Shown here one piece after another: positions 6,276-64,000 of a DNA stretch of 64,000 bases. A model generated the notes under the pieces. It worked only from the letters and a program-made list of their open reading frames with translations, was not told where the DNA came from and made no database searches. The stretch is from Haloferula luteola (lineage in GTDB: Bacteria > Verrucomicrobiota > Verrucomicrobiia > Verrucomicrobiales > Akkermansiaceae), in contig NZ_JACHFD010000011.1 in the NCBI RefSeq assembly GCF_014201715.1, positions 1 through 64,000 of the forward strand, given 5' to 3'. Made by a program: the position numbers and the translations under genes. How positions within the stretch are numbered: position 1 is the first letter of the stretch; every line of letters starts with the position of its first letter.

Positions 6276-9047
6276 TCAGTTCGATACCATTTCGGCCACG
6301 GGAGGTGCGAATTGGGTGAGGGGGATGCCTTCGACGGCGACCTTGTATTCGTCGAGCGTCGGCGTCCGGCCGAGGATGGCGGAGAGAACGACGACCGGAG
6401 TGGAGGAGAGCAGCGACTCCCCCTTCTTCCGTTCGGAGTCTTCGACCACACGCCCTTGGAAGAGGCGGGTAGAAGTGGCCATGACGGTATCTCCCTTGGC
6501 GGCCTTTTCTTGGTTGCCCATGCAGAGGTTACAGCCAGGACGTTCAAGATACATCATGTTCTCGTATTCGGTGCGCGCGGCGGCCTTCGGCGCGTCGTCG
6601 TCGAATTCGAAGCCAGAGTATTTTTCGAGAGTCTCCCAGTCGCCTTCCGCTTTCAGCTCATCGATGATGTTGTAAGTAGGGGCCGCAACAACAAGCGGTG
6701 CCTGGAATTCGACCTTGCCCTTGGCTTGTTCGAGGTTCCGGAGCATTTGGGAGACGATCTTGAGATCGCCTTTGTGGACCATGCATGAGCCCACGAATCC
6801 GAGGTCCACGGTTTTCTCACCTGCATAGTAGGAGAGACCGCGAATGACGTCGTGGGTGTAGCGTTTGGAGACGTCATCGTTGTGGACATCGGGGTCGGCG
6901 ATCATCGGTTCGTCGATGATGTCGAGGTCGACCACGAATTCGGCATGGTACTTGGCATGGGCATCGGGAGCCAGAGGCGGTTTTTCGCCGGAGCGGATCT
7001 CGGCGATGCGTTTGTCGGCTTTGTCGATGAGGCCCTGGAGAACGCGTTCTGCGTTGTCCATGCCCTTATCGATCATGATTTGGATCCGCGCTTTGGCGAT
7101 TTCCAGGGACTCGATGAGGGTCTCGGGCTGAGAGATGCAGATGGAGGCCTTGGCCTTCATTTCTGCAGTCCAGTCGGTGAAGGTGAAGGCTTGGTCGGCG
7201 GGCAGGGTGCCGATGTGAACTTCGATGACGCGGCCTTGGAAGACATTCTCACCGAACTTTTTGAGCATCTGTGCCTGAGTGGCGTGAACGACGTCGCGGA
7301 AGTCCATGTAAGGTTTGAGCTCACCCTTGAAGGTGACCTTGACGGATTGCGGGATGGGCATGGTGGCCTCGCCCGTAGCGAGGGCGAGGGCGACGGTGCC
7401 GGAGTCCGCTCCGAATGCGACACCTTTGGACATCCGAGTGTGAGAGTCTCCGCCAATGATGATGTCCCAATCGTCCACAGTGAGGTCATTGAGGACCTTG
7501 TGAATGACGTCGGTCATGGCATGGTAGCCGTCTTTGGGATCCCGAGCCGTGATGAGTCCGAAGCCGTTCATGAATTTCATGAGCTTCGGGATGTTTGCTT
7601 GGGCTTTTTTGTCCCAAACGGAAGCGGTATGGCAACCGGACTGGTAAGCCGCATCGACGATGGGAGAGATGACGGTGGCCGCCATGGCCTCCAGTTCTTG
7701 AGAGGTCATCAGGCCGGTGGTGTCCTGAGAGCCCACAATATTGACTTGCACGCGAACGTCGGAACCGGCGTGCAAAGTCATGCCTGGCGTAGTGCCGACG
7801 GCATTTTTGTTGAAGATTTTTTCAACGGCGGTGAGTCCCTGACCTTCGTGAGAAATCTCTTTGGATGGGGCAAAGACGGCAGGTGCCTCCATGCCAAGAG
7901 TCTTGGCTGCGAAGGTTTGGAGTTTTTTACCAAAGACGATGGCGTAGGAGCCACCGGCTTTGATGAATTCCATCTTCTGCGGGGTGAGAGCTGAGGCGAT
8001 GTCGACAAGTTCTTTGCCGCTTCCGTAGAGTTTTTTGTCCTTGGTATTGATGGTGAGGACAGTGCCGGTCTCGACGGAGTAGACTTGTTCGAGAATCGGG
8101 TCGCCATTGGCATCGAGAACCGTTTTGCCATCGGCGTCGGTTTTCTTGACCCAGTTTTTGAGGTCGATGCCGATGCCACCGGTGACGCTGACGGTGGTGA
8201 GGAAGATCGGAGAGATCCCGTTGGTGCCAGCGACGATCGGGAAGATGTTGACGAAGGGTACGAACTTGCTGGCCTGCTTTCCGGTCCAGAGGGCGACGTT
8301 GTTGACGCCGGACATGCGCGAAGAACCGACGCCCATGGTGCCCTTTTCGGCGATGAGCATGACGCTCTTGTCGGGGTGAATGTTCTGCAGGCTGCGAATG
8401 GCAGATTGGGCTTCCGGGGAGATCATGCACTTCCCGTGCAGTTCACGATCGGAGCGTGAGTGGGCCTGGTTGCCAGGTGAAAGGAGGTCGGTGGAAATGT
8501 CGCCTTCGGCGGCAATGTAAGTGACGACGGGGATCTCTTCGGGGACCTCGGGGAGTTGGGTGAAGAACTCGGCTTGGGCGTAACTTTCGAGGATTTCCTT
8601 GGCGATGGGATTTCCGGCTTCGAAGGCTGCGGCGAGCCGTGCGGTGTCCGCCTCGTAGAGAAAAACCTGAGTTTTGAGAACCTTAGCGGCTTGCAGCGCG
8701 ACGGCTGGATTTTCTCCCAATGCGAGGTTGAGCAGGACCTCAATGGAGGGTCCTCCTTTCATGTGCGAGAGCATCTCGAAGGCGAACTCGGGCGAAATCT
8801 CGTCAACCAAGCTCGTTCCGAGAATGATTTCCTCAAGGAATTGGGCCTTTTCGCCGGCGGCGCTTGTGGTGCCGGGAAGGGTGTTGAAAATCAGAAACTG
8901 AAGGGAGTCCTTCCTTGCTTCATGGGCGGGGTCTTTGATCTGGGAAATGATTTCGGCCAGCAGCTCACCACTATCGATGGGCTTGGGGTGCAGGCCTTGT
9001 TCTTTCCGCTCCTCAATTTCCTTAATGTATTCTTGATACAGGCTCAT
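6276..9047 (-). CDS. acnB: Bifunctional aconitate hydratase 2 / 2-methylisocitrate dehydratase
   Basis: AcnB is the second aconitase family. The 923 residues begin with the family-specific HEAT-like domain (YQEYIKEIEERKEQG onward), followed by the swivelling domain and then the Fe-S domains. Cluster cysteines are seen in GSCMVHKGD and RPGCNLCMGN in the last third of the protein. The product interconverts citrate and isocitrate, and in the methylcitrate cycle can hydrate 2-methyl-cis-aconitate. In E. coli AcnB is the main vegetative TCA enzyme and an iron-responsive mRNA-binding protein; whether that holds here is unknown. A strong promoter lies at 9281-9308, giving a leader of roughly 230 nt that carries a palindrome at 9086-9102. 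Confidence 0.97.
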   Translation of the reverse strand: MSLYQEYIKEIEERKEQGLHPKPIDSGELLAEIISQIKDPAHEARKDSLQFLIFNTLPGTTSAAGEKAQFLEEIILGTSLVDEISPEFAFEMLSHMKGGPSIEVLLNLALGENPAVALQAAKVLKTQVFLYEADTARLAAAFEAGNPIAKEILESYAQAEFFTQLPEVPEEIPVVTYIAAEGDISTDLLSPGNQAHSRSDRELHGKCMISPEAQSAIRSLQNIHPDKSVMLIAEKGTMGVGSSRMSGVNNVALWTGKQASKFVPFVNIFPIVAGTNGISPIFLTTVSVTGGIGIDLKNWVKKTDADGKTVLDANGDPILEQVYSVETGTVLTINTKDKKLYGSGKELVDIASALTPQKMEFIKAGGSYAIVFGKKLQTFAAKTLGMEAPAVFAPSKEISHEGQGLTAVEKIFNKNAVGTTPGMTLHAGSDVRVQVNIVGSQDTTGLMTSQELEAMAATVISPIVDAAYQSGCHTASVWDKKAQANIPKLMKFMNGFGLITARDPKDGYHAMTDVIHKVLNDLTVDDWDIIIGGDSHTRMSKGVAFGADSGTVALALATGEATMPIPQSVKVTFKGELKPYMDFRDVVHATQAQMLKKFGENVFQGRVIEVHIGTLPADQAFTFTDWTAEMKAKASICISQPETLIESLEIAKARIQIMIDKGMDNAERVLQGLIDKADKRIAEIRSGEKPPLAPDAHAKYHAEFVVDLDIIDEPMIADPDVHNDDVSKRYTHDVIRGLSYYAGEKTVDLGFVGSCMVHKGDLKIVSQMLRNLEQAKGKVEFQAPLVVAAPTYNIIDELKAEGDWETLEKYSGFEFDDDAPKAAARTEYENMMYLERPGCNLCMGNQEKAAKGDTVMATSTRLFQGRVVEDSERKKGESLLSSTPVVVLSAILGRTPTLDEYKVAVEGIPLTQFAPPVAEMVSN

Positions 9048-9085
9048 GTCTGCTCAACGGCGTTGATTTTCTGGTGGGAGTGCCC

Positions 9086-9102
9086 CATGGCCGGAGGCCA
9101 TG
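9086..9102 (-). promoter_or_regulatory. Palindrome in the acnB 5' leader
   Basis: CATGGCC and GGCCATG flank a GGA loop, 38 nt upstream of the acnB start. It could be a protein-binding operator or an mRNA hairpin; the function is unknown. Confidence 0.4.
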
Positions 9103-9280
9103 CTCAGAACCCAGCAGGCGCGATTTCCTGAACACCGATGAGAGCCGGTGCGAAGGTGATGGCGCTGGGGTTTTCCATGGTGGCGGGCGGTTTGGGTTTC
9201 GGTGAGTTTTTCGGAGAGAGGTCGGAGTCAGGAACCCATCGGTTTCAGGGCAATCCGCGGACTCTGTGGGATGGGCGCGC

Positions 9281-9308
9281 AGATTACCGGGGGGGGGATG
9301 GATGTCAA
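9281..9308 (-). promoter_or_regulatory. Strong acnB promoter with a G9 tract in the spacer
   Basis: On the minus strand a consensus -35 TTGACA (+ 9303-9308) and a -10 TAATCT (+ 9281-9286) are separated by 16 nt. The spacer contains nine consecutive C (nine G on the plus strand, 9289-9297). No other candidate this close to consensus was seen between here and acnB. Changes in the tract length would alter promoter spacing. Confidence 0.7.
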
Positions 9309-9423
9309 AGAATGATGACTGTCAGAGGTGGCGGTCGGCCGAGGGTTGCGGATGTCTAGCAGGAGGCGCGCCGGGGTGGGGGTTTCTGTGAAGGGACCTC
9401 AGGTTTCGTTACAGTATGGGTGA

Positions 9424-9795
9424 GGGAAAGCGGTGATTCCGATGGGTGGTGTGGGAGAGTGGTGGAGGGGAGGGCGGAGCCGACATGTCGGCTCCGGGGA
9501 GGGTGGCGAGGTTGGGTGGAGGTGGTTGGGGAAAGCGGTGACGTGTCACCGCAGTCCGATGGGTGGGGTGGGAGAGAGGTGGAGGGCGGAGCCGACGTGT
9601 CGGCTCCGGGGAGGGTGGTGAGGTTGGGTGGAGGTGGTTGGGGAAAGCGGTGACGTGTCACCGCAGTCCGATGGGTGGGGTGGGAGAGAGGTGGAGGGAG
9701 GAGCCGACATGTCGGCTCCGGGGAGGGTGGTGAGGTTGGACGGAGGTGGAAGGGGAAAGCGGTGACGTGTCACCGCAGTCCGATGGGTGGGGATT
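9424..9795 (+). repeat. Dual-hairpin repeat array 1, period 112 bp
   Basis: Two different hairpin cores alternate. Core A (GCGGTGACGTGTCACCGC) is at 9535-9552, 9647-9664 and 9759-9776, and an internally deleted copy begins the array near 9424-9446. Core B (GGAGCCGACRTGTCGGCTCC) is at 9476-9495, 9588-9607 and 9700-9719. Every like-to-like interval is exactly 112 bp. Spacers are G-rich and almost free of C on the plus strand. The array lies between the divergent acnB and cytochrome genes. It is the same family as the arrays at 13995-14360 and 22523-22785. Confidence 0.95.
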
Positions 9796-9810
9796 TGGAT
9801 GATCCGAGTC

Positions 9811-9838
9811 TTGCTGTTGGAAGCTGGGGGGGTAGGCT
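9811..9838 (+). promoter_or_regulatory. Promoter of the cytochrome c lipoprotein gene (leaderless type)
   Basis: TTGCTG (9811-9816), a 16-nt spacer and TAGGCT (9833-9838) lie just 6 nt before ATG 9845, so transcription would start at or next to the start codon. No Shine-Dalgarno sequence fits in between. Confidence 0.55.
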
Positions 9839-9844
9839 GGGCGG

Positions 9845-10228
9845 ATGCATCGCATGTTGATGATGGCCGTCGGATTGGTGGCAGGTTGGGGGCTTTCGGG
9901 TTGTGCCGGAGGGCCTTCCGGAGCTTCGTCGGGTGAAATGGGCGATATTGCGACCGATGATGGTGCGACGGGCGGCATTTCTGAGGTCCCGAACCCGACG
10001 CCAGAGATGGCTCGGGCTAGTGGCACTTCGTTGGAGACGCTGCAGCGCGGTCATGTGGTCTACATGCTCAAATGTGGGGAGTGTCATGCGTATCAGCTGC
10101 CGAAGGATCTTTTCATCGATGAATGGGAGGATGCGATCCCCACCATGATTGGCCACGCAGGTCTCGGTTCCGAAGACGAGAAGGCGGTGCTTGCTTATGT
10201 GGTTGCGGTGAAAGGCGACGACGACTGA
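9845..10228 (+). CDS. Small monohaem cytochrome c-like lipoprotein
   Basis: The 127-residue protein has a lipoprotein signal ending at GLSGC (Cys near 20), a Gly/Ser/Asp-rich linker and a short cytochrome c domain. The domain has one haem-attachment motif, CGECH in MLKCGECHAYQLP near residue 77. A later methionine in IPTMIGHAGL is a plausible sixth haem ligand, and the C-terminal helix is EKAVLAYVVAV. It would be an electron carrier tethered on the periplasmic side of a membrane; the partner is unknown. It is 55 bp upstream of the Hsp70 gene and may be co-transcribed. The start is supported by the promoter placed 6 nt upstream. Confidence 0.75.
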   Translation: MHRMLMMAVGLVAGWGLSGCAGGPSGASSGEMGDIATDDGATGGISEVPNPTPEMARASGTSLETLQRGHVVYMLKCGECHAYQLPKDLFIDEWEDAIPTMIGHAGLGSEDEKAVLAYVVAVKGDDD

Positions 10229-10283
10229 TCTGAAGCTTGAATGCCGGGTTGCCAGCCGGGCGATGGTGGCCATCTTGGCCGGG

Positions 10284-12053
10284 ATGAGTGAGCTGATTGT
10301 CGGAATCGACTTGGGCACGACGAATTCTGCCATCGGGGTGGTGGATAGCGGATTCCCGATCCTGCTGGCCAATGCTGCCGGCCAAAGGATTACGCCGAGT
10401 GCGGTGGCCTTTGGTCCGGAGGGTGAGGTTCAGGTCGGGGAAAAGGCGCTGCGTCAGCGATCGATGCGACCGGTGGTCACCAGCGTGAAGCGGCTCATGG
10501 GGCGTCGAGGTGAGGAGGTGCTGGATTTTTCACTGCCTCTCGAGATCGACGGAGAAGGCCGGCTCCGGGTGGAGGGTCATACGCCCGAGGAGGTGAGCGC
10601 GGAGATTCTGCGGGAGTTGAAGCGCGTGGCGGAATGGCGGCTGGAGCAACCCGTGCACAAAGCGGTGATCACGGTTCCGGCATATTTCCATGATGGACAG
10701 AGGAATGCGACGAAGCGGGCCGGGGAGTTGGCGGGCTTGGAGGTGGTCCGGATCGTGAATGAGCCGACGGCTGCGGCGCTGGCGTATGGTTTGGACAAGC
10801 TTGGCGAGAAATCGCGGGTTGCCGTGTATGACTTCGGGGGGGGCACCTTTGATTTGTCGGTGTTGGAGATGCAGGATGGGGTATTTCAGGTGCTGGCGAC
10901 GCGGGGAGATACGCGGCTTGGAGGCGATGATCTGGATGCGGCCTTGGTGACGTGGTGCGCGAGGCAAGCCGGAGTGGAGTCGACCGATGTGCGATGGGTC
11001 GAGGAGGCGGAGCGGGTGAAGCGGGCATTGAGTCAGAAAGATTGGGAGACGTTCCGGTTGCCGTTTTTCGATGGTCAGAGGAGCTTGGAGATTCCAGTAA
11101 GCCGGGAGGACTTTGAGGCTCTTTCGCGACCGTTTGTTGAAAAGACTCTGCAATGTTGTCGGGGTGCCTTGGCGGATGCAGGGGTGACTGCGGACGAGTT
11201 GGATGCGGTGATTCTGGTGGGAGGGTCCACGCGGATTCCGTCAGTTCGGCAGGCCGTTGCGGAGGCATTCGGTCGAGAGCCGGACTTGTCGCAACATCCC
11301 GATGAAGCGGTGGCGCTGGGAGCCACGATTCAGGCGGGGGTGCTCAGTGGTGCCATGAAAAAGATGGTTCTGCTCGATGTGACTCCTCTGAGTTTGGGCA
11401 TTGAAACCTTTGGGGGGCTGATGAATGTGCTGATCCCGCGGAATACGACGATCCCCTGCAAGGCGGGTGAGATGTTTACGAATGCCGCTGCGGGGCAGCG
11501 TTCGATGCAAATTCGGGTGCTGCAGGGCGAACGGGAGATGGCCCGCGACAACTGGCCGTTAGGCGAAGTCGAAGTTCCCTTTGAGGCATCGGAGAAAGGT
11601 CGGGCTCGAGTGGGGGTGCAGTTCCGGATCGATGAAAATGGGATTCTAGAAGTTCTGGCGCGGGATACAGCAACCGGCCATGACACCGTGATGGAGATTC
11701 GCAGCGCAGCCGTGGATGTTTCTGATGAGCAGGTGGAAAGAATGGTGAGCGAATCGGTGGAGTATGCCTTTGACGACATGGCGGAGCGGATTTTCACGGA
11801 AGCCCGTTTGAAGGCCGAGGAACTCTTGCCAGCGGTGGATCAGGTGCTCACCCAAGGAGGCGATCTTGTCACGGAGGTGGAGGAAACGGAGATTCGCGCC
11901 GTGGTGGCGGAAGTGAAGGTGGCTTTGGAGGTCGGGAAGGCTCACGAGCTCAAAGCCGCGGTGCAAAAATTGGATCATGCGACGGAGGCGGTAGCCGCGC
12001 GATTGGTGGAACGGGCGATGGAAGAGGCGCTTCTTCGCAAAATGGGCGGGTAG
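10284..12053 (+). CDS. Hsp70 family chaperone (DnaK/HscA-like)
   Basis: The N-terminal ATPase domain is complete: IVGIDLGTTNSAIGV (phosphate 1), VYDFGGGTFDLSVLE (phosphate 2), NEPTAAALAYGLDK, and LVGGSTRIPSVR (adenosine). The substrate-binding domain follows (VLLDVTPLSLGIETFGG, FTNAAAGQRSMQIRVLQGE). The helical lid is short and lacks the Gly/Asp-rich EEVD-like tail of housekeeping DnaK. At 589 residues it is nearer HscA (about 615) than DnaK (about 640). No hscB, iscU or dnaJ/grpE neighbour is present, so it may be a specialised Hsp70. The frame opens at ATG 10263, but MSELIVGIDLG at 10284 fits the family start better. Confidence 0.88.
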   Translation: MSELIVGIDLGTTNSAIGVVDSGFPILLANAAGQRITPSAVAFGPEGEVQVGEKALRQRSMRPVVTSVKRLMGRRGEEVLDFSLPLEIDGEGRLRVEGHTPEEVSAEILRELKRVAEWRLEQPVHKAVITVPAYFHDGQRNATKRAGELAGLEVVRIVNEPTAAALAYGLDKLGEKSRVAVYDFGGGTFDLSVLEMQDGVFQVLATRGDTRLGGDDLDAALVTWCARQAGVESTDVRWVEEAERVKRALSQKDWETFRLPFFDGQRSLEIPVSREDFEALSRPFVEKTLQCCRGALADAGVTADELDAVILVGGSTRIPSVRQAVAEAFGREPDLSQHPDEAVALGATIQAGVLSGAMKKMVLLDVTPLSLGIETFGGLMNVLIPRNTTIPCKAGEMFTNAAAGQRSMQIRVLQGEREMARDNWPLGEVEVPFEASEKGRARVGVQFRIDENGILEVLARDTATGHDTVMEIRSAAVDVSDEQVERMVSESVEYAFDDMAERIFTEARLKAEELLPAVDQVLTQGGDLVTEVEETEIRAVVAEVKVALEVGKAHELKAAVQKLDHATEAVAARLVERAMEEALLRKMGG

Positions 12054-12059
12054 TTCGGA

Positions 12060-12088
12060 TTGACCCGGGCCGCTGAGCTGCCTTGGAT
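12060..12088 (+). promoter_or_regulatory. Possible promoter before the zinc-ribbon membrane protein
   Basis: TTGACC (12060-12065) and TTGGAT (12083-12088) are separated by 17 nt, with ATG 12106 17 nt further on. The -10 is weak. Confidence 0.35.
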
Positions 12089-12105
12089 CATGGCCGGACA
12101 TTGCC

Positions 12106-13206
12106 ATGACGGAGAAAGCGGAAGGTTGGTATCATTGCGGGCGCTGCGGCCATCTTTATGAGGCTGCAGACACGGGGCTGTGTCCACAATGTGGTGAGAG
12201 CCCGATCATCAGTGATTCGGAGGTGGCCTATCACCAGGCGGTGGCGGAGACCCGCGAAGTGGCGGCGACTTCTGCATCCCTCCGGCCACGCGGGAAATCC
12301 GATGGCCTGGTGAAGTTCACCCTGGCCTGGTTGGGATTTTTGGTGGTGATCGGCGGTGTGATCGCTTTGGCTCGAGCATTCCGAGAAGAAGGGCCGAAGG
12401 AGGCCCTCGATTTCAGCCAACAGACCGAGAGCCTTCAGGAGATCAATGAGGCGTTTTCGAAGTGCTATCCGAAAGTCCGGGCATATTATTCGAGTGTGTC
12501 GCCAGAGCTGCGGGGGCCATTGACCTTGCATCCGAGCCGGACGCTGGAGCGGATGAGCCGCTGGCCGGAGGAAATGGTCTTGATTGATGCCTCGACTTTG
12601 TTGCGCAACCAGACGTTCCGAGTTTTCCAAACCTCTGAGGGCGAGACAGCGGCAGGTCGTTGGGAGTTGGAGAACGGCGATCGGGTCGAGGCGGTGTTTC
12701 GGAAGGACGATGAAGATCAGTGGGCGATCGATTGGGAGCAGATGGTGCGCTACTCAAGTGAGGTGTGGCCTGTTTTTCTAAGTGGTCTGAGCCAACAAAG
12801 TGGTGAGTTTCGCCTACTCGCTCGCCGTCGGGCGACCGATTCACTGGGAGTGGGGGATGTTTCCCGCATCGTTTTTCATCAGCCAAGTGCCCGCCGTCCT
12901 GGGGAGTATGGTCATGCTTCTCCGGAGGTCATCGTGGATCCTAATTCGGAAGATGGGATGATGCTTTCGGAAGCCTTTCGCTTGCGGGATGCCGGAGATG
13001 CGCCATTTCACAGCCGGCTGACGGAGGGGGATCCCGCCGGGATGATTCGGGTGCGCGTCCGATTGACATTGGGTCCCAAAGACGAGCACGGTCGCGTAAC
13101 TCTGCGCCTCGACAAGGTGATGGCTTGCCATTGGATGGACCTCGGGGACTCTGGAATGGACGAAAAAAAGGCCCCCGCCGCAGCGGAGGCCCCAGAAGAA
13201 GAGTAG
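12106..13206 (+). CDS. Membrane-anchored protein with N-terminal zinc ribbon, unknown function
   Basis: The 366-residue protein is not a recognised family. It has a zinc ribbon at residues 11-30 (CGRC and CPQC), one transmembrane helix near 68-90 (FTLAWLGFLVVIGGVIALA) and a roughly 250-residue domain beyond the membrane. That domain contains the landmark QWAIDWEQMVRYSSEVWPVF and ends with a GRVTLRLDKVMACHWMDLG strand. The same layout and landmarks occur in the product at 42665-43768, which makes them diverged paralogues with different N-termini. The last codons (EKKAPAAAEAPEE) overlap the terminator of the convergent DUF1080 gene. It lies 52 bp downstream of the Hsp70 gene. Confidence 0.65.
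   Translation: MTEKAEGWYHCGRCGHLYEAADTGLCPQCGESPIISDSEVAYHQAVAETREVAATSASLRPRGKSDGLVKFTLAWLGFLVVIGGVIALARAFREEGPKEALDFSQQTESLQEINEAFSKCYPKVRAYYSSVSPELRGPLTLHPSRTLERMSRWPEEMVLIDASTLLRNQTFRVFQTSEGETAAGRWELENGDRVEAVFRKDDEDQWAIDWEQMVRYSSEVWPVFLSGLSQQSGEFRLLARRRATDSLGVGDVSRIVFHQPSARRPGEYGHASPEVIVDPNSEDGMMLSEAFRLRDAGDAPFHSRLTEGDPAGMIRVRVRLTLGPKDEHGRVTLRLDKVMACHWMDLGDSGMDEKKAPAAAEAPEEE
13162..13191 (-). terminator. Intrinsic terminator of DUF1080 gene, inside the opposing CDS
   Basis: On the minus strand an interrupted stem (GGCC plus CCGC, then GCGG plus GGCC; + 13170-13191) is followed by seven T (+ 13163-13169). It lies 31 nt beyond the DUF1080 stop codon and wholly within the 3' end of the convergent gene. 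Confidence 0.8.
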
Positions 13207-56251: not shown

Positions 56252-56971
56252 TCAGGGAGTCGAAGCAGTGGGGACCCGATCGAGAAGTCCTTCGATATCT
56301 TCCGCGGAGATGGGTGCCATGTGGAGGTCCGCGAACACAACGCCTCCCCTTTGATCCTCATCCGGCGGCAAGATGAGCAGTGGGAATGTGTCGCTCTGAC
56401 TCAACGGCTGACCGGCTGCGGGATACAGCACACCCTTTTGGCGTGTCCACGACAGTGCCCGGGTGTCGAAGGCATCCATGTCTTCCGAAAGGAAGATGGA
56501 TTCCAAAGATTCGGGATACCGGCTGGCATCACCCACCGAGTCCTCCAAGACAAGTGCCAGCATCTTGAGGTGACCGAGATGGGAGGGACGATGAGTCTGG
56601 GTCCAGGATCCATCCATCGGCGTTCGAACCATGAGTAAGATCCCAGGAATGAGGAACGAAGCCCCAAAGAGCACACTCGTCCCCGCAACGACGGCAAGCG
56701 AGGTGCGGAATCTCCAGCCGGGGAGGCGAAAGGCACGGCGGGCGAGGTGGTGGAGGATCCCGATGGTCGCCAAGCTGGCCACTCCCCACGCGACGAGAAT
56801 CTCGGGATCGATCGACATCGAGGAAAGGTTTCTCCTCAAAAACCCCATCCAACCCCAAAGGAGATGCTTGAGAAAGGAGAGGGTTGCGGGAAGCCCTCGA
56901 CCGGTAAGGAACAGGACGAGAACGAAAAGGAACGCTCCGAGCGCCCATCGGGAGAAGCTTGAACTCTTCAT
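56252..56971 (-). CDS. Membrane protein with pseudopilin-like C-terminus, cassette gene 3
   Basis: No known family is recognised. The 239-residue protein has about three membrane helices (WALGAFLFVLVLFLT; ILVAWGVASLATIGILHH; TSVLFGASFLIPGILLMV) and a C-terminal soluble part with YPESLESIFLSEDMDAFDTRA, GVLYPAAGQP, LLILPPDEDQRGGVVFADLH and ISAEDIEGLLDRV. That tail resembles the C-terminal part of pseudopilin-like proteins. It overlaps the preceding gene by 4 bp (ATGA), and the same pattern of domains is found in that gene and the next one. It is the last gene of the trio at 56252-58397. Confidence 0.55.
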   Translation of the reverse strand: MKSSSFSRWALGAFLFVLVLFLTGRGLPATLSFLKHLLWGWMGFLRRNLSSMSIDPEILVAWGVASLATIGILHHLARRAFRLPGWRFRTSLAVVAGTSVLFGASFLIPGILLMVRTPMDGSWTQTHRPSHLGHLKMLALVLEDSVGDASRYPESLESIFLSEDMDAFDTRALSWTRQKGVLYPAAGQPLSQSDTFPLLILPPDEDQRGGVVFADLHMAPISAEDIEGLLDRVPTASTP

Positions 56972-57699
56972 GGCGGGAGGAGGGCGTCGAGCTTTTGAGG
57001 AGAAACGAATTGGTGGGAACCATCCGCGAAGATGATCAGCGGAGCGTTTCCTTCCACTTCGGTAGCGACGAGGATGGGCGTCGAGGACGGGAGAGTGGTG
57101 ATGTCGGCCCCGGGTTGGAGCAGGATGAACGGCTCCATGTGACGGCTCGACTGGGATGGAGGGTAGCGGACCAGATGGACGGCCGCAGGATCCGCGGCGA
57201 CGATGTCCTCAATGGTGCGAGGATGCCTACCTTTGGCTGCGGATTCCATGAGCCAATGATGGAGATGAATCCCCCGATTGAGGGCCATGACTCTTGCTAA
57301 GCGGAAGGAGTGAACGATCATGCGATTCCTGCCCAGCCAGACGCTTTCGTGGACGATGCCGATCATGGAGGTGGCGGCTGCCATGGCAGCGAGAAGAAGT
57401 CCGGTCGCGCGGAGAGTGGTGGAGAATGGCTGGATCCACGTGGTCATTCGGCGAAGAAATCCGTGGAGCAGGAGCACGGCGGCAGCAGTCGCGAAGAGAG
57501 AGAAAGCAAGAGTGAGTGGATCCCACGAGAGGTGGGGTAAATTGACGATCGGGTGGCGGATCCAACCAGTGCCGAGATGCCAGATGATGAGGAAGATCCA
57601 AACCACCGGACCGGATCCAAAGAGGAGCATCCACCCGAACAAGGAGAGGCTGACCACGAGTCCCCATCGAAAGCGACGGCGCGGACGCTCCGGACTCAT
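56968..57699 (-). CDS. Membrane protein with pseudopilin-like C-terminus, cassette gene 2
   Basis: No known family is recognised. The 243-residue protein has three or four membrane helices (WGLVVSLSLFGWMLLFG; VVWIFLIIWHLGTGWI; LTLAFSLFATAAAVLLLHG; AAMAAATSMIGIVHESVWLG). A soluble tail contains HPRTIEDIVAADPAAVHLVRYPP, PILVATEVEGNAPLIIFADGSHQF and VSPQKLDALLPP. The tail follows the same order as in both neighbours: a small-residue helix, a YP element, a hydrophobic strand pair ending in F-A-D-G, then an S-x-x-x-L-D-x-L-L helix. It overlaps the genes on both sides by 4 bp (ATGA). Confidence 0.55.
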   Translation of the reverse strand: MSPERPRRRFRWGLVVSLSLFGWMLLFGSGPVVWIFLIIWHLGTGWIRHPIVNLPHLSWDPLTLAFSLFATAAAVLLLHGFLRRMTTWIQPFSTTLRATGLLLAAMAAATSMIGIVHESVWLGRNRMIVHSFRLARVMALNRGIHLHHWLMESAAKGRHPRTIEDIVAADPAAVHLVRYPPSQSSRHMEPFILLQPGADITTLPSSTPILVATEVEGNAPLIIFADGSHQFVSPQKLDALLPP

Positions 57700-58397
57700 G
57701 GCTTTTCTTGCTGGCTGAGGGCCGAATCAAGACGGCCTTCCGACCAGTCTTCGATCGAGCCGTCGTTGAGAAGCACATAGCGCCGGGGACCTGCGGATGT
57801 GGGCTCATAGGCAACAATGTCACGGCCAGTGCCGATTTTCTGCGGACGCGAGTAGCCCAAGTAGTGGCCATCGTGGAGCCGCCACAGGGCGCGTGGGACT
57901 TCCCCGGAAAAGGGGCTCAAGGGCGCCTCGCCCTGATGGTCCTCGGCATACTCCCAAATTTGATCGCGTAGGGTCTCGAAGCGGCTGCGACGCAGCTCTT
58001 TGCTTTCCATTTTCCCCTCGTTCTGGCGAAGGCGGTAGCCGATGCCCTGTTTTTCCCATGCGCCGGGGGTGAGCAGCTCTCGAGCCCCGGAGATCATCGT
58101 AAGGATCACGTAGAGGAACAGCCCTGAGAGTAGCAACAGGGCGAGCGCATTTCGGTAGCTGAGCCTCGGTAACCGGGGATGGCTTCTGGATAGTGAATTC
58201 CACAAGCCTTTCACCGCCAATCCCAGAACGAGATAGGCGAAGAGAAAAAACGAAAGGACATCGAGTCGGGCGCGAGCGGCATCGGTCAGCGTGATCACCG
58301 TCATGCCGGCATGAGCGGGCAAAGTGAGCAGGATCGCTCCCATCAGCCCGTAGGCAACTCCATGAGGAACTCTTCGAGGATAGGAGTGAAGTGACAT
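57696..58397 (-). CDS. Membrane protein with pseudopilin-like C-terminus, cassette gene 1
   Basis: The first gene of the trio codes for 233 residues: three membrane helices (MGAILLTLPAHAGMTVI; VLSFFLFAYLVLGLAVKGLW; NALALLLLSGLFLYVIL) and a soluble tail. The tail has RFETLRDQIWEYAEDHQGEAPLSPF, YLGYSRPQKIGTGRDIVAYEP, RRYVLLNDGSIEDWSEGRLDSAL. The V-L-L-N-D-G element matches F-A-D-G in the other two. No family is recognised. It starts 30 bp after the stop codon of the upstream sugar isomerase-type gene on the same strand, so it may be transcribed with that cluster. Confidence 0.55.
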   Translation of the reverse strand: MSLHSYPRRVPHGVAYGLMGAILLTLPAHAGMTVITLTDAARARLDVLSFFLFAYLVLGLAVKGLWNSLSRSHPRLPRLSYRNALALLLLSGLFLYVILTMISGARELLTPGAWEKQGIGYRLRQNEGKMESKELRRSRFETLRDQIWEYAEDHQGEAPLSPFSGEVPRALWRLHDGHYLGYSRPQKIGTGRDIVAYEPTSAGPRRYVLLNDGSIEDWSEGRLDSALSQQEKP

Positions 58398-58427: not shown

Positions 58428-59315
58428 TTAGATGTCGGCAAGCAACTCTTGGAATTGTCGGCCGTAGTTGACATAAGATTGATAGCATTGCTGCCAATCA
58501 ACGGCAGACGGATCGGGCGCATGGAACACGGTGGCGACATGGGGTTCGATGGCGATCCAGCCTTGGTAGCCACGGGCTTTGGCATCCGCGAGAATTTCAC
58601 GGAGTTTCGCCTGTCCCTCTCCCGGCATGGTATAGACGGGTTCGACGTCGGGAGAGCTTGGGTTGAGGCAATCTTTGATATGGATGTGGGCGACGTGATC
58701 GCGCACCTTTTCCCAGAATTCGAAGGGATCCTGCCAGGGGAAGGAACCATCGGCCCTCGGCTTGGAACGATCGAGCTGAAAGACGGGATTACCGGTGTCG
58801 AAGACCAGCTTCATGCCGGGGACTTCATCGACGAGGCGAAGGGTATGTTCCGCGGAAAAACCTCCCCAGTTCATGCAGTTTTCGTGGATGGGGGTGAGGC
58901 CGGCATCGGCGAAGCGGGAAACGATTTCGCGCAGTCGACGAAAGCGCTCTTGTTCGTGTTGATCGGTCCCCCAGGGTTCCTGAGCATAGGACATGATCCG
59001 GACGAGGGAAGTTCTGAGGCGCTGCATGCGTGGAATGCAGCGCTGGATCTCGGCCAGGGTGACGTCGAAATCGGAGTCGATTTTTTTGCCCCAGTTGGCA
59101 ATCAAGGATCCAAATTCAGGGACTTCAATCTCGGCCTCATCCAAGCGGTCGGCGACTTGATCGAAGGTGTCTTGTGGCAATTCGTGAAGGTTGGCATTTC
59201 CGACCATTCGGGCGGAGAGGGCCGTCCAACCCAATTCGCGTGTCGCTTGAATCTGGGTCTCGAGATCCCGAGATGCTTCGTCGGCGAAGCCAGTCAGTTT
59301 GAAATGGGGCGTCAT
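58428..59315 (-). CDS. Sugar phosphate isomerase/epimerase (AP-endonuclease 2-like TIM barrel)
   Basis: The 295-residue protein is a xylose-isomerase-like TIM barrel. Metal- and substrate-binding elements are seen in PIHENCMNWGGFSAEH, KLVFDTGNPVFQLDRSK, VAHIHIKDC and QGWIAIEPHVATVF (Glu, Asp, His and Glu). Members isomerise or epimerise sugars, inositols or 3-keto-sugars; the exact reaction is not visible. It lies 115 bp downstream of the Gfo/Idh/MocA dehydrogenase gene on the same strand, in the sugar cluster 58-64 kb, and there is a second one at 62123. Confidence 0.85.
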   Translation of the reverse strand: MTPHFKLTGFADEASRDLETQIQATRELGWTALSARMVGNANLHELPQDTFDQVADRLDEAEIEVPEFGSLIANWGKKIDSDFDVTLAEIQRCIPRMQRLRTSLVRIMSYAQEPWGTDQHEQERFRRLREIVSRFADAGLTPIHENCMNWGGFSAEHTLRLVDEVPGMKLVFDTGNPVFQLDRSKPRADGSFPWQDPFEFWEKVRDHVAHIHIKDCLNPSSPDVEPVYTMPGEGQAKLREILADAKARGYQGWIAIEPHVATVFHAPDPSAVDWQQCYQSYVNYGRQFQELLADI

Positions 59316-59430
59316 GATCGAGAGAAGGGTGATGGAGTGGGTATCGTCTCGCAGGGTGCGGAGGATGCAGCGGTAGGGTGAGCTCGGAATGGCGCAATCG
59401 AGGGTCCGGCCTTGGTGAAATGGCGATGGG

Positions 59431-60471
59431 TTAGAGTGAAACGCTTTTCCCGGTCCGAGCGCTCTCGTAGATGGCGTGGATCAGGGCGACGGATTTGCGG
59501 GCTTCGGTGGCGGAGGTCGTCGGTTGGCGGCCTTCGCGCAGCGCGAGCACGACCTCTTCGAAATTCCGTTGGTGTTGAAGATAACCGATGGCTTTCGGGT
59601 CGTTGGCGCCCAGGCCGGCTTCGGCCCCTTTCATGAGGGTGGCTCGCAAGGTGGCATCTCCCGGTCGTTCGGTCCGAAAGTCCCAAAGTTCGAAAGTCTC
59701 GTCCGCGAGAAACACCGAGCCATCTGTCCCACAAAGTTGGACTCGAGCTGGATGGCCGTCTTTCGACCAGGTGCAGGTGGAGCCCTCGATGACGCCACGG
59801 GCTCCATTTTCAAATTCGAGGAGAGCCACGGCGATGTCTTCGACTTCGATGCGCTCGTGGGCCAAGCAGGCGGTATGGGCGTGAACTGCTCGAACAGGGC
59901 CGGCGAGATGAAGCAGCGCGTCGATGGTGTGGATGGACTGGTTCATCAAGGCGCCACCTCCGTCGAGGGCCCAGGTGCCCCGCCATGCTGCGGAGTCGTA
60001 GTAGGCCTGGTCGCGAAACCATTTGATGTAGGCGGATGCCGAAGTCAGGCGGCCGAACCTTCCCTCATCGACGGCAGCCTTGAAAGCGTCCATGGCGGGG
60101 TGGAATCGACGATTGAGGATGGCTGCGAGGGTTTTTCCCGCGGTCTGGGCGGCCTCGATCATGGTGTCGATGCGATCGGGCGTGATCTCGAGAGGTTTTT
60201 CGCAGATGACGTGCTTGCCCGCGGCGAGAGCGGCAAGGGTCGGCTCAAGATGGGCCCCAGAAGGGGTTGCGATGGTGACGATATCGAGTTCGGGATCGTC
60301 GAGAAACGCATCGAGATGGGAAAATGCCGGGACGTTGAATTCGCGGCCAAAGGCTTCCGCAGCCTCCGGGCGTTTGGCAAAGACCGAGTGCAAGGTGCCG
60401 CCCGACATGGCCTGGAGGGCGCGGGCGTGGAATTGGCCGATCATGCCGGCCCCGATGATTCCGAATTTCAT
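59431..60471 (-). CDS. Gfo/Idh/MocA family oxidoreductase
   Basis: The 346-residue protein has the NAD(P) motif GIIGAGMIGQFHARALQ and the family signature HVICEKPLEITPD with the catalytic Lys. The second domain has GGGALMNQSIHTIDALLHLAGP, with the His of the active site. Members oxidise sugars, inositols or sugar derivatives at a hydroxyl, often giving 3-keto products. ATG 60471 overlaps the stop of the transporter gene by 4 bp (ATGA), so the two are translationally coupled. This suggests that the transported substrate is oxidised directly. Confidence 0.92.
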   Translation of the reverse strand: MKFGIIGAGMIGQFHARALQAMSGGTLHSVFAKRPEAAEAFGREFNVPAFSHLDAFLDDPELDIVTIATPSGAHLEPTLAALAAGKHVICEKPLEITPDRIDTMIEAAQTAGKTLAAILNRRFHPAMDAFKAAVDEGRFGRLTSASAYIKWFRDQAYYDSAAWRGTWALDGGGALMNQSIHTIDALLHLAGPVRAVHAHTACLAHERIEVEDIAVALLEFENGARGVIEGSTCTWSKDGHPARVQLCGTDGSVFLADETFELWDFRTERPGDATLRATLMKGAEAGLGANDPKAIGYLQHQRNFEEVVLALREGRQPTTSATEARKSVALIHAIYESARTGKSVSL

Positions 60472-62090
60472 GGGAGAGTGCGTCGTTCGTTGCGAAGGAA
60501 ACCAAGGGTACCGATGAGGAAGAGAAGCCCGAGGAACAGCAGACCTCCCCAGCCAAAGTAACGCTCCCAGTTGGTGGCTTGCGTTTTGCCCCATAGGACC
60601 CACACCGAGCCCCCCGTGGCGATGGCGGTGGCTGGAATCATGAGGGCATTCCAAACCCAGCGTCGGCGGCCAGTAGGGCGCTCATGACCGAGGATCTGCC
60701 GGGAGTTCATCATGAGAAGGAAGGTGAAGTAGGCGATCGGGATGAGTGAGCCTCCGATCACCGACGTCGGAACCGCGAGAGCGGCCTTGGAAGCTCCATT
60801 CCAGAACAAGGGGAACAGGCAGCCGGAGATGCCGGAAAGGGCACACCCGAGGAAAAAGATGGCGCGCTCACGGGCGGGCTCGGTTTCCAGGGACGGCGCG
60901 TCGTGGGGAGACGAAAAGGCCTCCATGAAGGCGGTGCCGTTCATGAGCATGAGGATGACGATCGTGGATAGCGCCATCCCGAGAACGCCAATGCCGAAAA
61001 TCTTCTGGGAGATGACGGGGCCGGCGAAGGGCTCAAGGGTGATCGCCAGCGCGTTGGCATCGCGTTTGACGAGCATGTCGGCGAGTTCTCGATCGGCCTC
61101 GTTCGGGGTGATCGTTGGATGGGCAGCGGAGAGAGACTCGATGAGGGGAGCGCCCGCTCCTGGAGCGACATCGTGAGTCCGAGTGTGAAAGGACGACGCG
61201 GAAGCGATGACGACGCAGGAGGTGGCGAGGAAGAAGGGGATGAACAGGCCCACGGAAAGGTCGGTGATCGAGAGACCCCGATGGCGTTTTCCCCATTTCT
61301 TTTTGAGCAAGGTGTAGGGCAGCAGAAAGGTCATGTTGATGCCCACCGCGGTGCCGAAGGCCGTGATGATGATATCCCGCTGGTCACTGGAGATGCGCTT
61401 GCCCCACCACGAGGGCGATGACGAGCGCTCAATGAGATCGCTAAAGCCGCTCGCGGGTTTGAAAAGAAGGGAAAAGTCCGGGACAAAGCCGCGAAAAACC
61501 GAACTCCATTCCAGTTGTCCGGAACGAGTCAGGGCGACCACCACGGCAAAGAAAGAAACGACGATCGTGCCGACCATGATCTTGATGATGAGGTCGAATG
61601 CTTTCGCCGCTCCTCCACCAGCTTGGTAGAGGGCATTGACTCCCATTCCGATCAGAAAGAGGACGACAATGATGGCGGTTTGGGGGATTTTCTCCGAGAG
61701 CAGATTTTGTTGGATCGCTGCAGTCGCGAGAGAGAACTGGGGCATGATCCACACCATGTTGGCGAGGACGGTGGCGCCGAGCCAAGACCAACCAAGAAGA
61801 GGGTGAAGGTGGCGCTGGATGGCATGGAAGGGGCGCTGTCCCGTTGTGAGCGTCACATAGGCGATGGCCGACAGCATGATGATCCCGCAGACCATGGCGA
61901 GAGGCTGGAGCCACATCAGTCCAAAGCCGGCAATGACGCCGAGGTAGAGGGCTCCGGTGAGCGAGCCTCCGCCGAGGGTGATGGCGCCTTGGAGCCATCC
62001 TGGGCCGGAGAGACGGGCGTAGATGAAAAAGCGACCAAGGGGGCCCTTTTGGGCAGCCTCGTCGAGCAGCTGGGTTTCGCGGTCGGACAT
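60468..62090 (-). CDS. Nramp-fold transporter, non-canonical
   Basis: The 540-residue protein has about 11 membrane helices with the Nramp layout. The normal DPGN motif of helix 1 is replaced by SGPGWLQGAITLGGGSLTGAL. The MPHN-type motif of helix 6 is replaced by AVGINMTFLLPYTLLKKKWG. Both are the metal-coordination sites of true Nramp proteins, so this is unlikely to be an ordinary Mn/Fe importer. A long periplasmic insert sits near residues 270-370 (FHTRTHDVAPGAGAPLIE). It lies between the sugar isomerase-type gene (32 bp upstream) and the Gfo/Idh gene, which suggests a sugar or organic substrate (inference). Confidence 0.75.
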   Translation of the reverse strand: MSDRETQLLDEAAQKGPLGRFFIYARLSGPGWLQGAITLGGGSLTGALYLGVIAGFGLMWLQPLAMVCGIIMLSAIAYVTLTTGQRPFHAIQRHLHPLLGWSWLGATVLANMVWIMPQFSLATAAIQQNLLSEKIPQTAIIVVLFLIGMGVNALYQAGGGAAKAFDLIIKIMVGTIVVSFFAVVVALTRSGQLEWSSVFRGFVPDFSLLFKPASGFSDLIERSSSPSWWGKRISSDQRDIIITAFGTAVGINMTFLLPYTLLKKKWGKRHRGLSITDLSVGLFIPFFLATSCVVIASASSFHTRTHDVAPGAGAPLIESLSAAHPTITPNEADRELADMLVKRDANALAITLEPFAGPVISQKIFGIGVLGMALSTIVILMLMNGTAFMEAFSSPHDAPSLETEPARERAIFFLGCALSGISGCLFPLFWNGASKAALAVPTSVIGGSLIPIAYFTFLLMMNSRQILGHERPTGRRRWVWNALMIPATAIATGGSVWVLWGKTQATNWERYFGWGGLLFLGLLFLIGTLGFLRNERRTLP

Positions 62091-62122
62091 GGGTTTGGGT
62101 TTGGGAATCGATGGGGCAGCGA

Positions 62123-62947
62123 CTAACTGCCAAAGAACCGTCGGAGGTGGTCGCGGCTGGCGATGGCGACCTGTTCGGGGCTGGGGTCGTAGCGGAAGAC
62201 CTCGACGGAGATCCAGCCGTCGTAGTGAGTTTCGCGAAGGGCGTCGACGATCGGAGGGTAGTCCACTTCACCCATGCCGGGCCCGTAGAGGTTGGGGTCG
62301 TTGGCGTGAAAGTGCGCGGTCCAATCGCGGCTTTGGCGAATGATCTCTGGGATCGGAGTGGGCTCCGAACTCATGGCTTTGACGTCGAGGTGGAGACGAC
62401 AAGAGGGATGATCGACGAGTTGGCAGAGCTGAATGCCTTGCTCGGCGGTGTTGAGGAAGTTGGTTTCGTTCGGTCCGAGAGGCTCGATGGCCAAGGTCAC
62501 ACCGAGAGGTCCGGCATGATGGGCGACTTCGCGTAGCAAGTCGGCGGCTCGGTGGAAAGCCGATGTCGGGTCCCAGTCGGATTCCAAGGAGCGTTGTTGG
62601 GGGCTGCCCCAGACCATGACGGTGCCGCCGAGGGCATGACAAAGATCCGCGAGGTGGCGCGCGTAGTCCAGAGTGGCCTGGCGAACCGCCGTGTCAGGGG
62701 TGGTGAGGTGGAGGCCGGAAGTGTGGGCAAGAAGCCAGTGAAGACCAATGACTTCGATTCCCAGATCGCGAGCTTGGCGCCCTCGTTCGGCGGCCTCCGA
62801 CAATGTGAACTTCCTGACCTCGTCGGAAAGCGTGTACGGTGCGACCTCAAGACCGGAGTAACCGTGCTTGGCAGCAAGGCGGATCGACTCAAGCCACGGC
62901 ACCGTGCCGTAGGTCTCGTTGCAGATGGCAAATTTTCCGTCGCTCAT
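62123..62947 (-). CDS. Sugar phosphate isomerase/epimerase, tagatose/psicose epimerase-like
   Basis: The 274-residue TIM barrel has the D-tagatose 3-epimerase-like pattern: FAICNETYGTVPWLESIRLA, LGIEVIGLHWLLAHTSGLHL, VTLAIEPLGPNETNFLNTAEQG (first Glu), CRLHLDVKAMSSEPT (Asp), WTAHFHANDPN (His) and DGWISVEVFRYDPSPEQVA (second Glu). These residues normally bind a Mn2+ ion for epimerisation at C3 of keto-sugars. It is cytoplasmic, and sits 18 bp after the DUF1080 gene and 32 bp before the transporter gene in the cluster. Confidence 0.88.
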   Translation of the reverse strand: MSDGKFAICNETYGTVPWLESIRLAAKHGYSGLEVAPYTLSDEVRKFTLSEAAERGRQARDLGIEVIGLHWLLAHTSGLHLTTPDTAVRQATLDYARHLADLCHALGGTVMVWGSPQQRSLESDWDPTSAFHRAADLLREVAHHAGPLGVTLAIEPLGPNETNFLNTAEQGIQLCQLVDHPSCRLHLDVKAMSSEPTPIPEIIRQSRDWTAHFHANDPNLYGPGMGEVDYPPIVDALRETHYDGWISVEVFRYDPSPEQVAIASRDHLRRFFGS

Positions 62948-62965
62948 GCGAAGCGCGGCGGAGGC

Positions 62966-63619
62966 TCAGAGTTCCTTGATGCGAAGGTTGCGCCAGCGCA
63001 CATGACAGGAGTCACCGGCGTGAACCTGAAGGGCAAAGAAGCCTTCTGGGGTGAAATCATCGCCTTCGTCCGTGTAATCGACACGGAGTTCGTCATTGAG
63101 CCAGATTTGCAAGTGGCGATCTTGGCAGACGATGCGGATTTCATTCCAATCCGTCCACTTGAAGATTTTCTTCCCTTGTTGGGTGAAGGCCTTTTCAGCC
63201 TTGGCATCTCCCGCGGCAGGGACGAGCCAACCGCGTCGGGCCTCATCGTAGAGACCTGCGGTCCAAGCACGGTCCTTGCGGTTGTCGTGTTCGCACTGAT
63301 AGCCAAACACGCGGCCGTCTTCACCGGGTTTTTGGAGACCTCGGAACATCATGCCGGAGTTGCCAGTGAGGTCGTCGAACTTGATCTCGAAGCGGAAATC
63401 AAAGTTGCCGTAGGTCTTGGTGGTGCGAAGGAAGGTGTTGTTTGCGACCTTTTCTCCAGATCCGACGATTTCTCCGTCGACCACAGAATACTCCCCGGAG
63501 CCATTGACGCGGGTCCAGCCGTCGAGATTGGAGCCATTGAATAGGGCCGTAAATCCTTCCTCGAGCGCGGAGGCGGAGAGGGCAAGGAGCCCGGTGAAGA
63601 GCAGAGTTTTGAAAATCAT
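62966..63619 (-). CDS. Secreted DUF1080 (3-keto-disaccharide hydrolase-like) protein
   Basis: The 217-residue protein has a signal peptide (MIFKTLLFTGLLALSASA) and one DUF1080 domain: FTALFNGSNLDGWTRVNGSGEYSVVDGEIVG, YGNFDFRFEIKFDDLTGNSGMMFRGLQ and CQDRHLQIWLNDELRVDYTD, ending WRNLRIKEL. In Bacteroides and Agrobacterium, members of this family hydrolyse 3-keto-glycosides after a Gfo/Idh-type oxidation. A Gfo/Idh gene, two epimerase-type genes and uxuA nearby support such a role. It starts 59 bp after the uxuA stop codon. Confidence 0.88.
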   Translation of the reverse strand: MIFKTLLFTGLLALSASALEEGFTALFNGSNLDGWTRVNGSGEYSVVDGEIVGSGEKVANNTFLRTTKTYGNFDFRFEIKFDDLTGNSGMMFRGLQKPGEDGRVFGYQCEHDNRKDRAWTAGLYDEARRGWLVPAAGDAKAEKAFTQQGKKIFKWTDWNEIRIVCQDRHLQIWLNDELRVDYTDEGDDFTPEGFFALQVHAGDSCHVRWRNLRIKEL

Positions 63620-63678
63620 GAGTGAAGCGGTTGGCCTGCCTGCTACGGTGCGGATCGGCAGATCTTTTCAAACTTGTC

Positions 63679-64000
63679 CTACAAGTGGGCGCCGAGTTCA
63701 AGCCCGAGAATGAGTCCCCGGATTTCGGCGAGGCCTTTCATGCGTCCAAGGGCGGAATAGCCGGGAGTGATGCCTTCGGGTTTGGCGAGGTCATCCATGA
63801 TGACGAGTCCGTGATCCGGGCGGAAGGGCACTTCTTCGGGTCGACGACGGTGGCGGAGGAAAGATATGAGAACTTCGGCGAGAGAGGTGGATCCTTCGAG
63901 ATGGGGAGCTTCATGGAACGCGCCCTGAGATTCCAATGAGGTGCTGCGCAGGTGGAGAGCGTGAATGCGATCGGCGAAACGGCCCGCCAGTTCGGGCAGA
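63679..64000 (-). CDS. uxuA: Mannonate dehydratase, C-terminal part (continues past the window)
   Basis: The frame enters from beyond position 64000 and ends at 63679. The visible C-terminal 106 residues match UxuA: RIHALHLRSTSLESQGAFHEAPHLEGSTSLAEVL, then VPFRPDHGLVIMDDLAKPEGITPGYSALGRMKGLAEIRGLI. UxuA dehydrates mannonate to 2-keto-3-deoxygluconate in glucuronate breakdown. The metal-binding His of PDHG and the HLR element are present. It is upstream of the DUF1080 gene and probably in the same operon. Confidence 0.88.
   Translation of the reverse strand, partial: LPELAGRFADRIHALHLRSTSLESQGAFHEAPHLEGSTSLAEVLISFLRHRRRPEEVPFRPDHGLVIMDDLAKPEGITPGYSALGRMKGLAEIRGLILGLELGAHL

Follow-up and report, generated by a model that had tools for sequence, protein, structure and literature searches.

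Nramp-related proteins without the substrate motifs of transmembrane segments 1 and 6 (TM1 and TM6) have already been described, in groups that include the NRMT-like proteins and G-motif 3, to which MntG belongs; the other groups are called entirely uncharacterised in that preprint (PMC12873925). Slc11 outgroups are covered in PMC10606218. The NrmT/NRMT proteins are Mg carriers (PMC4072509; PMC8806188) with the binding site DxxG-TxxA/T (PMC8806188). PxpT of Corynebacterium glutamicum, a member of the Nramp family, is required for growth on 5-oxoproline, and 5-oxoproline uptake has been inferred for PxpT and for YcsG (MntG of Bacillus subtilis) (PMC13274462), whereas another group reported YcsG as a Mn importer (PMC10448178), so that metal versus organic cargo among the motif-less Nramp relatives is disputed for this protein. 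Here we describe an Nramp-related transporter from Haloferula luteola, encoded in the whole stretch analysed here (hereafter the window), bases 1 to 64,000 of contig C11 of the source genome. It lies in a six-gene operon on the minus strand with the transcription order uxuA, a DUF1080 protein, TIM barrel A, the Nramp-fold transporter, a Gfo/Idh dehydrogenase and TIM barrel B.

Comparison of the sequences makes it probable, in our view, that this operon is a sugar-derivative catabolic module whose Nramp-fold carrier imports the organic substrate of the pathway. An earlier note on this DNA had gone further and proposed a new substrate class for the fold, which is too strong, since 5-oxoproline uptake has already been inferred for PxpT/YcsG (PMC13274462); such motif-less proteins are known, and the clade described here is therefore not the first motif-less or organic-cargo relative of Nramp. 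The new element is the link to one Gfo/Idh family. The transporter clade fits the description of the proteins in PMC12873925, with an Nramp fold and missing metal and proton motifs, and differs from those groups in being tied to a dehydrogenase, no genomic context being given in the available part of that source. Among the papers listed by our searches of the open-licence literature, we found no link between an Nramp-type carrier and sugar catabolism.

By its Pfam score and its modelled structure, the window transporter is a predicted member of the Nramp family with the Nramp/APC fold. The AlphaFold2 model (mean pLDDT 81, pTM 0.83) is best matched by DraNramp (6d91; Z 32.9, root-mean-square deviation 2.7 Å over 390 residues), followed by human NRAMP1 (Z 31.2), EleNRMT (28.6) and, less closely than DraNramp, the YcsG model 9a52 (27.3), while the first non-Nramp matches, SLC7A10, KimA and AdiC among them, come at Z 23.0 to 21.8. 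Against PDB sequences, the Nramp hits obtained were only weak (DMT1, E 0.0031, and NRAMP1, E 0.0066, with the single sequence; NRAMP1, E 0.016, with an alignment). The motifs were therefore mapped on a MAFFT alignment of the transporter and 30 further PF01566 proteins from the order, in which MPH is directly followed by a gap of one residue, rather than on the residue list of a structure aligner. In this alignment L39-G40-G41-G42-S43 stands in TM1 against the canonical M-D-P-G-N, and G250-I251-N252 stands in TM6 against M-P-H.

These positions were then counted over 93 non-redundant loci (the window, 79 from the scan and 13 from relatives), eight of 101 having been dropped as duplicates (L061, L119, L120, L124, L125, L126, L129 and L131) and near-copies such as L046/L048 kept. 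D at 40, N at 43, M at 250 and H at 252 each occur in 0/93. G40, G42, G250, N252 and M253 are invariant, M253 falling one position past the aligned MPH; G41 and I251 are kept in 92/93, and position 43 holds S in 88 rows and T in the other 5. The clade signature is LGGG[S/T] in TM1 together with GIN in TM6, and because all four ligand positions are changed in every member, the loss of DPGN and MPH holds for the entire sampled clade. With 29.3 bits against the canonical Nramp equivalog NF037982 (cut-off 50) and neither motif in place, the window transporter appears to fall outside canonical Nramp/SLC11, and the earlier description of an Nramp layout without DPGN and MPH is borne out. It likewise differs from the NRMT carriers, which it resembles as an Nramp-related protein with a changed binding site (PMC4072509; PMC8806188): NRMT keeps the D of its DxxG-TxxA/T site, and the clade has G there in 93/93.

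In a quick tree that carried long-branch warnings, a single branch separates the 93 rows from nine other PF01566 proteins. A scan of one genome per species gave at least 551 confirmed stretches, the best 80 of which were kept; among the matches listed, the record labels are Verrucomicrobiota, Planctomycetota, Bacteroidota, Lentisphaerota and Kiritimatiellota, mostly metagenome bins. We also observed another Nramp-related clade in the order (L146-L164); its TM1 reads GPGS and its TM6 is without MPH, so that the canonical metal motifs are absent there too.

The main rival explanation is that the carrier is still a metal importer and provides Mn2+/Fe2+ for the TIM barrels and UxuA, the operon's metal-dependent enzymes. 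The Nramp assignment by Pfam and fold is consistent with it, as is the finding that this is the only PF01566 protein found in the source genome. In an alignment to 4pgl and 2ou4, moreover, TIM barrel A matches D-tagatose 3-epimerase at four residues (E, D, H and E) that we take to be the metal ligands of that enzyme. A further precedent is YcsG, itself a motif-less Nramp-related protein (PMC12873925), which raised cell Mn when overexpressed (PMC10448178). We nevertheless regard metal import as unlikely: all four canonical ligand positions are changed throughout the clade, an Rfam scan of 7 transporter loci gave no match and hence no M-box or other known metal riboswitch, and one ZnuA-type binding protein is encoded elsewhere in the genome (PF01297, 207.4 bits), so that another Zn/Mn route is possible.

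There is strong evidence that the transporter and the Gfo/Idh dehydrogenase are conserved as a pair beyond chance, a point that the earlier note had suggested checking. Counted by tblastn, a Gfo/Idh gene of at least 50% identity lies directly downstream on the same strand in 46/93 loci, and in 41 of the 79 that have at least 1 kb of downstream DNA. Within the same loci, 48 Gfo/Idh hits fall in the 208 kb near the transporter (within 1.2 kb) against 6 in the 1,142 kb farther off, a 44-fold difference. The linked rows are spread over the clade tree with 16 changes, and 4-bp overlaps between the two genes were found in 6 of the 45 linked loci measurable by script, the window counted.

Since the locus scan kept only the best 80 matches, a test across the phylum was made with 387 genomes drawn evenly (transporter at E 1e-50, Gfo/Idh at E 1e-100). 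The transporter was found in 29 genomes and Gfo/Idh in 29, with both in 20, the window genome included, and each alone in 9 (Fisher p 6e-20, or 5e-19 minus the window genome; odds ratio 86, kinship ignored); these searches scored at most 3 or 5 candidates per genome, and the absences are not firm. Sixteen of the 20 co-occurring pairs lie on one contig, no more than 1.7 kb apart, in the same strand and order, and four are on different contigs; among the 16, three have room for one gene between, and three gaps are inflated, only the first half of the carrier having been mapped. In a hand count of the 57 nearest relatives, 21 of 25 carrier genomes have Gfo/Idh (E 1e-60), which occurs alone in 15.

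The remaining genes of the operon are less constant companions. TIM barrel A (at least 45% identity) was found within 1 kb upstream of the transporter in 21 of the 89 loci with room. Of the 70 loci with enough DNA downstream, 15 have TIM barrel B no more than 3 kb away on that side. DUF1080 was found within 3 kb in 6/93 loci and UxuA within 5 kb in 1/93, which is the window itself. With uxuA and DUF1080 so rarely nearby, these two genes do not define the pathway, and the six-gene set was rejected as a conserved pathway unit.

The window's genus provides a comparison in which the dehydrogenase stays and the carrier changes. Gfo/Idh is present in 18/18 genomes and the Nramp-type transporter in only 7, and we examined the Gfo/Idh surroundings in the other 11, plus 9 from other genera; two of the 18 genomes, G005 and G011, are incomplete (61% and 72%). 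The slot beside Gfo/Idh holds the Nramp-type carrier in 6 genomes, a major facilitator superfamily (MFS) protein in 10, both in 1 (G006) and neither in 1 (G001), a split with Fisher p 0.0025. The MFS gene lies between TIM barrel A and Gfo/Idh in six genomes (G003, G004, G008, G010, G011 and G016), with an extra small open reading frame (ORF) between MFS and Gfo/Idh in G011. Of the ten proteins from the MFS-only genomes, nine were scanned, each of them matching PF00083/PF07690 (Sugar_tr/MFS_1); the tenth (G005) was assigned by similarity only, and an ammonium transporter from another genus was left out of the count. For the four scanned with NCBIfam, the best models were TIGR00895 and TIGR00891, which are aromatic-acid and sialate symporter models. 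Metal import is also made less likely by the ten sister genomes that share this Gfo/Idh: their slot holds an MFS protein, and they have no match to the Nramp-type carrier.

When the 7 carrier genomes are compared pairwise (21 pairs), the carriers share a median identity of 52%, whereas the medians for Gfo/Idh and TIM barrel B are 77% and 79%, which indicates that different branches of the clade adjoin similar enzymes. Carriers of this one genus fall in separate tree branches, L121 near Saprospiraceae, L128 with L066, and L133 near Planctomycetes on a long, unsure branch. These sequence comparisons suggest that further carrier exchange may have taken place within the Nramp-type group. At L128 (G006), positions 8138-12629, Gfo/Idh, the Nramp-type carrier and the MFS gene are adjacent, as if one carrier had been inserted next to the other.

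Several observations weigh against import of an organic pathway substrate by this carrier. Roughly half of the clade lacks an adjacent Gfo/Idh gene (38 of the 79 loci that have room for it), and 9 of the 29 carrier-bearing phylum genomes have no Gfo/Idh at E 1e-100. Members away from Gfo/Idh have varied neighbours (sulfatase, gluconolactonase-like, 2-oxoacid dehydrogenase subunits, protein kinase, tRNA synthetase), so the cargo may differ between clade branches. The genomes of the genus are kin. On a Gfo/Idh tree of 24 rows, of which six belong to other genera, 2 switches of carrier type suffice, and on a TIM barrel B tree of 18 rows, three of them from outside the genus, 1 switch is enough; well-supported branches are few in both trees. 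This points to one or two swaps, with G006 in addition, rather than to ten independent replacements. The MFS gene is on the strand opposite Gfo/Idh in 10/10 genomes and the Nramp-type gene on the same strand in 7/7, so that control may differ between the carrier types, and G006 retains both carriers. All NCBIfam matches of the four MFS proteins are under cut-off (among the best 25 for three of them). Metal-dependent TIM barrels are also compatible with a metal importer, and missing motifs alone do not exclude metal, because YcsG has been reported as a Mn importer (PMC10448178).

The loci in which the neighbour is missing, together with the members in Planctomycetes and some Verrucomicrobia that have other neighbours, would also fit an adjacency that is only historical, with the carrier playing no role in the Gfo/Idh pathway. 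We consider this very improbable in view of the co-occurrence across the 387 genomes (kinship not corrected), the linkage over a tree with 16 changes, the recurring 4-bp overlaps and the similar enzymes adjoined by different clade branches within one genus. The earlier suggestion that a sugar derivative is imported keeps its footing in the conserved pair, the absent metal ligands and the MFS protein found in the same place in sister species, and loses that of uxuA and DUF1080.

The enzymes were compared with known pathways. The Gfo/Idh protein carries an EKP motif, read from its sequence, and its nearest solved relatives are 3q2k (E 1.3e-49) and 3q2i, presumably WlbA-type dehydrogenases of a UDP-sugar uronate. 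DUF1080 proteins have been connected with 3-keto sugars, BT2157 being named as a 3-ketotrehalose hydrolase (PMC9007349), and the operon resembles 3-keto-glycoside pathways in combining a DUF1080 protein, well above its Pfam cut-off, with a Gfo/Idh enzyme. The earlier note had drawn this link through Gfo/Idh and DUF1080 enzymes, and for Gfo/Idh it fails: the window dehydrogenase scores 22.4 and 28.1 bits against the BT_2158 and BT_2159 models, far below their cut-offs of 750 and 650, and lies outside both families, while DUF1080 is a rare partner across the loci. A BT2157-type pathway was accordingly rejected as a candidate, and a 3-keto pathway is not established for the operon from these comparisons.

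The inositol module IolG/IolE/IolO offers a similar combination of Gfo/Idh and xylose-isomerase-like TIM barrels, and was also rejected, since all three enzymes score under the respective cut-offs (IolG TIGR04380, 142.5 against 355; IolE TIGR04379, 28.6 against 290; IolO NF041099, 100 against 300). TIM barrel B has no hit among PDB sequences at E 0.001. The whole uxuA product matches TIGR00695 with 403.6 bits, over the cut-off of 199.55, and PDB 4eac at E 6.2e-113, supporting the UxuA assignment. The DUF1080 protein, one of 14 PF06439 matches in the genome, matches PDB 4jqt at E 9.9e-45, and its N-terminus, judged by eye, resembles a Sec signal.

Table 1. Genes of the operon, in transcription order, with window coordinates and family matches.
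Gene or product	Position	Strand	Family match
uxuA, mannonate dehydratase	63679..64000, cut by window end; full gene extends to contig position 64848 (L003:6680-7849)	-	PF03786 (window part)
DUF1080 / PF06439 protein	62966..63619	-	PF06439, 140.7 bits (cut-off 26.8)
TIM barrel A, IolO / D-tagatose 3-epimerase-like	62123..62947	-	PF01261, 142.7 bits (cut-off 31.1)
Nramp-related transporter, 540 aa	60468..62090	-	PF01566, 75.9 bits (cut-off 29.8)
Gfo/Idh/MocA dehydrogenase, 346 aa, ATG at 60471	59431..60471	-	PF01408, 106.2 bits (cut-off 24); PF22725, PF02894
TIM barrel B, xylose-isomerase-like, weakly IolE / fructoselysine-epimerase-like	58428..59315	-	PF01261, 93.4 bits (cut-off 31.1)

The ORFs and Pfam matches bear out the six genes, their order and their common strand as first noted (Table 1). 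Where some 4-bp overlaps had been reported, we found one, the ATGA at 60468-60471 shared by the transporter stop and the Gfo/Idh start; the other gaps are 59, 18, 32 and 115 bp in transcription order by ORF coordinates. The source genome (4.9 Mb) has 13 Gfo/Idh matches and 7 PF01261 matches, one of them inside uxuA, so chance adjacency of one Gfo/Idh gene and two TIM barrels is unlikely. A scan of L003:1000-10000 found no promoter (1.9 in shuffles) and 8 terminator-like sites (7.4 in shuffles), and we therefore assign no transcript ends. A 457-aa porin-like protein, outer-membrane by eye, is encoded on the minus strand at L003:8043-9416 (contig 65042-66415), ending 193 bp upstream of uxuA; it had no match in Pfam or NCBIfam, and its gene may be a member of the operon. 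Downstream of the operon, at window positions 56252-58397 on the minus strand, are three successive ORFs of 233-243 aa with hydrophobic N-terminal parts, of which the one scanned (57696-58397) had no Pfam or NCBIfam match.

Other genomic contexts of the clade were also observed. In the Planctomycetes loci L072, L073, L076, L077, L080 and L091, the Nramp-type gene precedes a class II tRNA-synthetase-like gene; in most of these loci a GltX-like gene comes next, and a pyridine-nucleotide oxidoreductase is encoded ahead. In the related loci L087, L093 and L102, a small protein-kinase-like gene follows the Nramp-type gene by about 20 bp or less. In the Bacteroidota loci L105, L106 and L111, a DUF7133-cytochrome c protein (scanned for L111) is encoded just upstream, which would fit oxidation of a sugar outside the cell before uptake; a gene of this type is also present at L092 and L099, without the linked Gfo/Idh family. 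UbiA and oxidase-assembly genes were rejected as partners, being divergent and present with or without Gfo/Idh. At L079:2344-7993, the Nramp-type gene is flanked by a TauE/SafE-type gene on one side and 2-oxoacid dehydrogenase E1/E2 genes on the other, an arrangement that hints at an organic-acid cargo.

This last locus bears on a further alternative, in which the carrier moves some other organic compound, such as an amino acid, a 5-oxoproline-like lactam or a short organic acid; the pathway would then process a sugar-amino conjugate or a 2-oxo acid rather than a sugar acid. The closest functional precedent, PxpT/YcsG, is of this kind, being an Nramp member beside catabolic genes that is required for use of an organic compound, namely for growth on 5-oxoproline (PMC13274462), and TIM barrel B has a weak likeness to the fructoselysine 3-epimerase model (24 bits). 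Those carriers, however, are partnered by the 5-oxoprolinase PxpABC, whereas Pfam named no pxpABC homologue among the genes of the window operon, whose enzymes are of carbohydrate type. We therefore think such a cargo improbable and favour import of the pathway's own substrate, also over metal supply.

In the proposed mechanism, the Nramp-fold carrier would move the organic substrate across the inner membrane, Gfo/Idh would use NAD(P) to oxidise or reduce one hydroxyl or keto group, and the product would be epimerised, isomerised or cleaved by the two TIM barrels. The gene in the slot beside Gfo/Idh would serve substrate uptake, the place being taken by the Nramp-fold carrier in some lineages and by MFS proteins in others. 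Two further steps may be additions in this species and a few others, DUF1080 for hydrolysis outside the cell and UxuA for passing mannonate into the Entner-Doudoroff route. The identity of the cargo and the coupling ion are the weakest steps. We infer that the cargo is the pathway substrate and, more weakly, that it bears a carboxylate (a uronate, an aldonate or a keto-sugar acid), because the best models of the MFS proteins, although under cut-off, are aromatic-acid and sialate symporters, the nearest relatives of Gfo/Idh are 3q2k/3q2i, and the TM1 turn of the clade is glycine-rich, recalling the carboxylate-binding turn of the APC amino-acid carriers. These hints favour an acidic or oxidised sugar and do not fix its identity.

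More tentatively, the whole LGGG[S/T]/GIN clade might consist of secondary carriers for sugar acids or keto-sugars in Verrucomicrobiota, Planctomycetota and Saprospiraceae, interchangeable with organic-anion MFS proteins and binding substrate through the TM1 glycine backbone at the canonical metal site, an extension that we regard as quite possible and somewhat short of probable. The clade provides a clean natural test of the dispute over motif-less Nramp relatives, as the same Gfo/Idh has an adjacent Nramp-type carrier in some species and an MFS protein in others. If the cargo is indeed organic, metal-transporter names inherited from Nramp models would mislead for hundreds of proteins, the at least 551 stretches of this clade; and if the extension is true for the clade as a whole, it would be, to our knowledge, the first carbohydrate-derived cargo for the Nramp fold.

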